Assembly: GCA_017459865.1 (NCBI GenBank)
Contig: JAFUCD010000002.1
Span: 124,001 to 188,000, forward strand
Length of the DNA: 64,000 bases
Source of the DNA: Oscillospiraceae bacterium
Lineage (GTDB): Bacteria; Bacillota_A; Clostridia; Oscillospirales; Oscillospiraceae
Reading direction: 5' to 3'
The notes beneath the pieces were generated by a model. That model made no database searches and was not told where the DNA came from. It saw only the letters and a program-made list of their open reading frames with translations. Each line of letters begins with the position of its first letter. The stretch's first letter is position 1. A program made the translations under genes and the position numbers. This document shows positions 48,735 through 58,182 of this stretch, piece by piece.

Positions 48735-48770
48735 ACATTCCCTCGGTGATTGCTTGATAAACATGATTTT

Positions 48771-49140
48771 CAGTATGTCGACAAAGTGTCGACATACTGA
48801 CGCGTCGCCAGTATGTTTGCTCCGCAAACAGCAATCTGTCTAAAAAAGCAAACTTTTTTAGACAGATTGCGGCGACAATGGATTGAAATCGAGGCGGCCT
48901 TAGCGTCAGACCGGGCGCGCTTCATTCCGCAGCTGCGCTTACGCGCACCGACTCCATATCCGCTTCCCCGGCCTTCCTTTCCAACATGCACATGCCTGTG
49001 CATGTTGGTGAAGGAGGAATGACTTTCGCCGTCATCCATAAGAGGTTCTGCCTCTTATGGTGACTTGCGCAAGTCATTCCGACGCAGCTCCCCGCTGCTC
49101 TGTTTCATAAGTCAACAGCATGGGTTTGTCTACAGTCTGA
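48771..49140 (-). repeat. Structured repeat A, copy 1 (with nested R)
   Basis: Read on the minus strand it runs TCAGACTGTAGACAAACCC, CAGAGCAGCGGGGAGCT, then an inserted block (repeat R copy 3), then AAGGCCGCCTCGATTTCAAT, then three hairpins: H1 48831-48870 (GCAATCTGTCTAAAAAAG arms), H2 48814-48830 (TGTTTGC-GGA-GCAAACA) and H3 48771-48799 (CAGTATGTCGACA-CTT-TGTCGACATACTG). The same order is found in the other orientation at 57785-57981. It fills the space between the DHHW and DtxR genes; no gene is seen. Confidence 0.85.
48902..49080 (+). repeat. Structured repeat R, copy 3, inside repeat A
   Basis: Box 1 CATTCCGCAG, hairpin I TGCGC-TTAC-GCGCA (48934-48947), box 2 ATATCCG ... CCTTTC, hairpin II CCAACATGCACA-TGCC-TGTGCATGTTGG (48981-49008), then GGAATGACTT ... 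AAGTCATTCC enclosing CCATAAGAGG...CCTCTTATGG. It interrupts the A copy exactly where copy 57785 is continuous. Confidence 0.7.
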
Positions 49141-49185
49141 TTTTCCCATAAAAAGCGGGTGCTTTTTATGGGAAAAGTCGTTTGA
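49141..49185. other. Hairpin at the end of the DtxR gene
   Basis: TCCCATAAAAAGC-GGGT-GCTTTTTATGGGA, flanked by TTT and AAAAG. It lies 3-prime of the minus-strand DtxR gene and is its likely terminator. Confidence 0.6.
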
Positions 49186-57704: not shown

Positions 57705-57784
57705 AAAGACCGGAAAAGTGGGTTTTCAAACCCGATCCATCCGAACTTTTTTCGGTTTTCAAACCGGATAGAGAACCGAGTTAG

Positions 57785-57981
57785 TCAGACTGAAGACAAA
57801 CCCATGCTGCTGACCTATGGGACAGAGCAGCGGGGAGCTCGAGGGGCAAGGCCGCCTCGATTTCAATACATTGCCGCCGCAATCTGTCTAAAAAAGTTTT
57901 GCTTTTTTAGACAGATTGCTGTTTGCGGAGCAAACATCTCGGCGGCGCCTCAAGGTGTCGACACTTTGTCGACACCTTGAG
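57785..57981 (+). repeat. Structured repeat A, copy 2
   Basis: Uninterrupted copy: TCAGACTGAAGACAAACCC, CAGAGCAGCGGGGAGCTC, AAGGCCGCCTCGATTTCAAT, then H1 57879-57919 (CAATCTGTCTAAAAAAG arms), H2 57920-57936 (TGTTTGC-GGA-GCAAACA) and H3 57949-57981. H3 is CTCAAGG+TGTCGACA on the left and its exact complement on the right, whereas copy 1 has CAGTA in place of CTCAAGG, also complemented on its other arm. Confidence 0.85.
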
Positions 57982-58182
57982 TTAGTCCGTGCTTAACAGG
58001 GGTTCTATCACCGTTTCGCTCCATGTTGCAAAATTGTCAAAGTCCCGGATCCGTTGCGATGCGGGACTTTCTTCTTCCGTGTCACCCGGACGTCCGGTGC
58101 TATAGAGAGACAGTATAGTACAAAACAGGAAAAAACACACACAGAAAGAAGGACAGAAACAGGACGCGCCGCGGACAGCGCG
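57982..58182. other. Intergenic stretch between repeat A and the SLH hydrolase gene
   Basis: No gene seen. It contains hairpin 58039-58070 (AAAGTCCCG / CGGGACTTT, terminator-like on the plus strand with CTTCTT after it) and a CCGGACGTCCGG palindrome at about 58087. Confidence 0.5.

Follow-up and report, generated by a model that had tools for sequence, protein, structure and literature searches.

Repeat A is very probably a miniature non-autonomous transposable element of the IS1182 type, which targets palindromes, with the target hairpin becoming duplicated, and in which the pairing of the right-end palindrome, H3, is kept. The sequence comparisons are best explained by a new family of IS1182-type MITEs; its relatives have terminator-like hairpins as targets and often duplicate them, and its end palindromes are kept by compensatory change. 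The DNA sequences themselves show the copies and their inverted repeats, the covariation, the choice of hairpins as targets and, in the relatives, the duplication of the hairpin.

Two copies of the element, A and B, were located in opposite orientation in the window (the whole stretch of DNA that was analysed, 64,000 nt), and a search of the window for further copies revealed no third. The features of both are collected in Table 1. By blastn the two copies are 90.9% identical over 55 bp (57785-57839 against 49140-49086) and 91.3% identical over 127 bp (57848-57974 against 48901-48776). Both contain, in this order, the left end, P1, the M region, the helix around H2 and the small hairpin, and H3, which is a perfect palindromic hairpin in each. 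The description in the earlier note, of two oppositely oriented copies sharing segments and three hairpins, was thus borne out by the alignment and by the fold. The predicted structure of copy A is far more stable than that of shuffled sequences, with a z score of -10.8 when folded as RNA and -12.5 when folded as DNA, none of 200 shuffles being as good in either case. An nhmmer profile of 17 aligned copies, which includes both window copies, recovered copy A with an E value of 2e-50. For one protein of the window, the 120 matches listed of 5729 bore names no closer than distant Ruminococcaceae or Ruminococcus (52-53% identity), so that the host is at best uncultured kin of these.

Table 1. Features of element copies A and B in the window
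Feature	Position	Strand	Remarks
Element copy A (TCAG...TTGA)	57785..57980	+	196 bp, MITE-like
Left terminal inverted repeat TCAGACTGAAGACAAACC	57785..57802	+	Family form TCAGACTGTAGACAAACC; copy A differs from TCAGACTGTAGACAAACC by one base
P1, left subterminal hairpin	57801..57834	+	MFE fold; one double change between A and B
Most conserved 43-nt core, including hairpin M (57839-57860)	57825..57867	+	17 aligned elements
Helix enclosing H2 (57879-57919) and small hairpin (57920-57936)	57872..57947	+	Fold; one C-G to T-A double change between A and B
H3, right-end palindrome, holding the right terminal inverted repeat	57949..57981	+	Final base belongs to the flank
Left copy of 9-bp direct repeat GAGTTAGTC	57778..57786	+	Candidate short target duplication; final two bases overlap the element end
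Right copy of GAGTTAGTC	57979..57987	+	Flank comparison
Element copy B (TCAG...TTGA)	48770..49140	-	371 bp; 184 bp replaces 8 bp within hairpin M
H3 of copy B	48770..48800	-	Palindromic hairpin
H2 of copy B	48831..48870	-	Hairpin
Terminator-like hairpin with perfect 16-bp arms	49141..49176	-	Abuts B on the left; not repeated past its right end

When copy B was placed on the fold of copy A, 57 of the 75 pairs were unchanged, four were changed on one side, five were changed on both sides with pairing retained, eight were broken and one fell in a gap. Three of the double changes affect consecutive pairs of H3 (57953-57977, A-T to G-C; 57954-57976, G-C to T-A; 57955-57975, G-C to A-T), which confirms the earlier claim that the H3 arms had changed with compensation; the remaining two are in the helix enclosing H2 (57874-57945, C-G to T-A) and in P1 (57815-57820). 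Four of the broken pairs lie in hairpin M, which holds the 184-base insert of copy B, one in P1 and one at the tip of H2, while the last two include a flanking base, one of them involving position 57784 and the other being the outermost pair of H3 (57949-57981). The hairpins which had been called H1 and H2, and said to be the same in both copies, correspond to H2 and the small hairpin of Table 1, and their arms are indeed identical. The insert itself (48902-49085) is hairpin-rich DNA with short inverted ends (GCGTC/GACGC) and is perhaps a nested element. A different hairpin-bearing insert is present at the same place within M in three copies of another genome (L112, L158 and L160).

Relatives of the element were identified in other genomes. 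A scan of genome contigs with an 18-mer pattern gave 64 stretches, one of which, in the uncultured Clostridiales genome RUG221 (L020), was a true relative (89% identical over 197 bp); the other 63 matched copy A by blastn over 29 bp or less and were rejected. The same pattern had no match in viral contigs, and a similarity search of plasmids with copy A found none. The sole phage match was to an unannotated human-faecal scaffold labelled as an UNVERIFIED bacteriophage (MT838946.1, positions 2877-2920; L219), which is 93% identical to 44 nt of the core and is possibly mislabelled bacterial DNA. In the taxonomic family of L020, 21 of 400 genomes (that of L020 included) gave a match with an E value of 1e-5 or better, two candidates being scored per genome. 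Allowing one mismatch, the left end CAGACTGTAGACAAACC occurred 81 times in ten of these 21 related genomes, the reversed control giving no occurrence, so that the element is by no means limited to the two copies of the window; G180, G192 and G092 are the copy-rich genomes. For 48 of the 78 left ends found with up to two mismatches, among them both window copies, a right end could be recognised; for the other 30 it could not. The multi-copy element is about 140-370 bp in length and does not contain a transposase gene. The relatives form two subfamilies, one of the window's type and a second one. From about position 1500 of L106, a copy of the element is interrupted by what appears to be another transposon, the open reading frame of which we take to be TnpV-like.

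The second subfamily provided 33 aligned copies in which pairing could be followed over 40 pairs in four helices. Cells were paired in 98.2% of cases, compared with 91.9% in shuffled and 42-51% in slid alignments, although many of the sequences are close kin within one genome (mean identity 89-94%) and the cells are not independent events. Double changes were found at 20 of the 40 pairs, as against 5.0 in shuffled alignments, and this number was reached in none of 500 shuffles; the arms of the relatives have therefore diverged with compensation. By helix, double changes affect eight of 15 pairs in H3, seven of 11 in H2 and five of 11 in M. The outermost pair of H3 fails in nine of the 33 copies, which is to be expected because it reaches into flanking DNA. 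The alignment comprises 33 of the 48 complete copies, those omitted being the two window copies, six of the core-i type (L065, L086, L104, L112, L158 and L160), three longer forms (L080, L127 and L167) and four with doubtful or different ends (L092, L119, L101 and L126).

The covariation of hairpin M also bears on an alternative in which selection acts on a structured non-coding RNA, or on a regulatory element of the 3'-UTR, and mobility comes second; read-through from the upstream gene would transcribe the P1-M-H2 interior, which would function as an RNA. This is considered unlikely. In its favour, the mean pairwise identity among 17 aligned window-type elements is 88% in the 43-nt core and 51% in the parts on both sides, but these elements were picked largely by their core matches and the contrast is thus partly built in. 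The two subfamilies have little sequence in common and a similar architecture, and covariance model R1, built from the interior of 22 of the 33 second-subfamily copies, crossed between them once (L084, E value of 0.0013); it found the element in only that one of the 20 window-type sources among the 27 searched, and the reverse model, R2, reached the other subfamily only with E values of 0.07 (L087) and 8.2 (L103). It is plausible that the interiors of the two subfamilies share ancestry. A search of 394 genomes of the order with R2 under strict filters gave three matches with an E value of 0.001 or better. With Rfam 15 the window showed six tRNAs and no other family at the gathering threshold, and seven relatives, searched with E values up to 5, gave 16 matches which were all under the gathering score. 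The orientation of the flanking genes gave no usable signal, spurious open reading frames being abundant. Of the two proposals in the earlier note, that of a mobile element maintained as a palindrome is supported by the IS1182-type inverted repeats, the many copies and the duplicated flanking hairpins (28 of 46 copies); that of a structured RNA could not be established by the Rfam searches, although the base-paired interior may serve as an RNA. A further and rather more doubtful proposal is that the interior serves as a module, either a functional structured RNA or a cruciform that binds protein, and has become joined to different IS1182-type ends on repeated occasions, spreading as a self-sparing mobile 3'-UTR. 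If so, it would hop into terminators, duplicate them, spare the host gene and join the 3' end of many host transcripts.

In the flanks of the copies listed, a recurrent arrangement was observed, namely a hairpin, the element and the same hairpin again, often followed, as judged by eye, by a run of T. At least 12 identical bases were shared by the left and right flanks in 30 of 48 copies (30 of 46 when the window copies are excluded), whereas none of 2256 mismatched flank pairs had as many. A hairpin of at least nine pairs abuts 36 of 45 left ends and 35 of 44 right ends, compared with 3.1% of 2000 random positions. Comparison of the hairpins of 46 copies (44 relatives and the two window copies; L092 and L119 were excluded here and from the abutment count) revealed 24 direct duplications of the whole hairpin and four more which were scored as duplications but have a loop that is inverted or altered. 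Ten copies had two different flanking structures, a class that includes weak structures such as that of window copy A, and four had a hairpin at the left only and four at the right only, these one-sided cases including stops at contig ends (L100, L120 and L145). In L137, L138 and L167, and marginally in L114 (0.85 against 0.82), the stems of the flanking hairpins are alike and one loop is the reverse complement of the other, which suggests that the loop was inverted after insertion.

Homologous recombination between terminators, or duplication of a whole intergenic region, could in principle have spread the element together with its flanking hairpins. In L099 (period of 222) and L076 (period of 149) hairpins alternate with element copies in tandem arrays, which would agree with such a process, as would the ten of 46 copies with two different flanking structures. 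However, the sequence of the target hairpin varies between sites and yet matches on the two sides of a single site, and in the clear cases the duplication stops at the ends of the element, which makes this explanation very improbable overall, although it may apply to the arrays.

A clean duplication of a whole hairpin was not seen at either of the window copies. The 9-bp repeat which flanks copy A was equalled or bettered in 32 of the 2256 mismatched flank pairs, and the 7-bp repeat at copy B was reached by 267 of them. When the flanks of copy A were joined and folded, a weak hairpin was obtained which ends 4 nt before the insertion point and is absent on the right, while copy B has its perfect terminator-like hairpin at the left end only. 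It is plausible that the two are older or altered insertions and not clean examples. A search for empty sites in genomes of the genus gave no site close enough to count; the gene adjoining the insertion was present in three of three genomes for one insertion and in three of seven for another, carriers included. Two candidates (L204 and L209) have, by eye, one hairpin of different sequence, and a third (L205) ends at a contig end.

The IS1182-type DDE domain (Pfam PF13751) was detected in 107 of the 400 genomes of the family, 96 of them above the cut-off, and in four of the 21 element-carrying genomes, the copy-rich genomes G180, G192 and G092 not being among these four. Thirty-two IS1182-type gene loci were inspected for element-like ends, which were found on both sides of seven (L172, L193, L195, L196, L199, L200 and L202), on one side of six and on neither side of 19. 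Of the seven, four (L172, L193, L199 and L200) were compared with NCBIfam model NF033551 (IS1182 family transposase, cut-off 270) and scored 389-401 bits; L171, which does not have element-like ends, scored 370 bits in the same comparison. Three of the seven two-ended loci (L193, L199 and L200) are flanked by a duplicated whole hairpin, with flank matches of 29, 30 and 29 bp, respectively, where 42 mixed controls gave 8 bp at most. In ISfinder, the direct repeats given for IS1182 are long and variable. A flanking hairpin was found at the right only in L172. L195 (1142 bp and apparently shortened), L196 and L202 have two different terminator-like flanking hairpins and are possibly the products of recombination or of adjacent deletion.

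The ends of these insertion sequences resemble those of the miniature element in structure, since in 11 of 14 a hairpin starts 8-15 nt inside the end, compared with 6.3% of 3000 control positions in the same elements, and H3 occupies the same place in the miniature element. In sequence, a truncated IS1182-type element in L173 has an end identical to the family left end TCAGACTGTAGACAAACC at 16 of 18 positions, and L195 and L196 each have one end that matches it at 15 of 18. The right end matches that of L193 at 15 of 18 positions in the relatives and copy B and at 14 of 18 in copy A. No autonomous element with exactly the TCAGACTGTAGACAAACC end and no identical partner was found. Comparison of the 32 loci with both window copies and 33 MITEs of the second subfamily gave a single match, of 29 bp at an end; because the match is limited to that end, the MITEs tested did not arise from the elements seen by simple internal deletion. 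In another alternative, a Y1 transposase (IS200/IS605-type, RAYT) mobilises palindromes of the REP/BIME kind. These would likewise be palindromic, intergenic, present in opposite orientations and close to terminator-like hairpins, but they are a scarcely credible explanation for an element whose two ends carry terminal inverted repeats and whose flanks hold long target duplications, the enzymes found with similar ends being DDE transposases of the IS1182 type. We know of no REP elements with inverted-repeat ends or target duplications.

For the miniature IS1182-type element the following mechanism is proposed. An IS1182-family DDE transposase would be supplied in trans and would recognise ends composed of the terminal inverted repeat and a subterminal hairpin (P1 on the left, H3 on the right). 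The target would be a palindrome, usually a terminator-like hairpin, and strand transfer may take place at both feet of this hairpin, or of a cruciform, to be followed by gap repair which would leave a whole hairpin on each side. With a hairpin on both sides, the host gene would therefore keep one, and such insertion would explain how the elements build up beside genes with no loss of terminator hairpins. The arms of H3 would co-vary because pairing at this end is maintained more strictly than the letters themselves, which would explain why the end palindromes change letters and yet stay paired. The transposase, the cruciform step and the arrival of copies A and B by the same route are what we infer.

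Among the matches listed in the open-licence literature, the titles and opening lines of abstracts contain no description of this element family or of terminator-duplicating MITEs. In the sections available of a review of MITEs, which hold no occurrence of IS1182, the elements QMITE2, BOX, RUP and SPRITE are similarly short and mostly intergenic, with stem-loop transcripts or terminator-like parts, but none is described there as related to IS1182 or as duplicating a target terminator (PMC10969869). There are also two MITEs of Methanosarcina acetivorans, of 160 and 169 bp, for which the available part of the source lists the IS1182 element ISMac2 as partner (PMC3852290). These are also short non-autonomous elements with an IS1182 partner; they differ in belonging to another domain of life, in having direct repeats of apparently 4 and 0 bp (the column order being deduced) and not a whole hairpin, and in that no structured interior is described in that part of the source (PMC3852290).

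The preference of IS1182 elements for hairpins is already published. According to a review cited in the available text of both PMC5678879 and PMC4923244, some members of the family target palindromes. The targets of IS1272, a member of the IS1182 family, are inverted repeats, which it is reported to replace without duplicating the target (PMC5678879, in the part available), and IS1272/TnSha1 of Staphylococcus inserts at hairpins, including terminators, with deletion of the target (PMC4923244, likewise). The elements described here share with IS1272/TnSha1 the family, the hairpin or terminator targets, the lack of a fixed target sequence and insertion at the hairpin base (both sources, in the same parts), and differ in being gene-less and about 140-370 bp long. 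Hairpin loss of the IS1272 type, with no duplication, does not agree with the 28 of 46 copies that are duplicated; the other 18 do not decide. A further difference is that, where IS1272 removes or replaces the target hairpin, as described in the sections seen, these elements often duplicate the whole of it. In the available text on IS1272, duplication of a whole hairpin is drawn only as a hypothetical pathway b (PMC5678879), and the relatives reported here would provide many natural cases of a transposon type that follows this branch. The branch point between duplicating and removing the hairpin could be tested directly with the IS1182 transposases of these bacteria.
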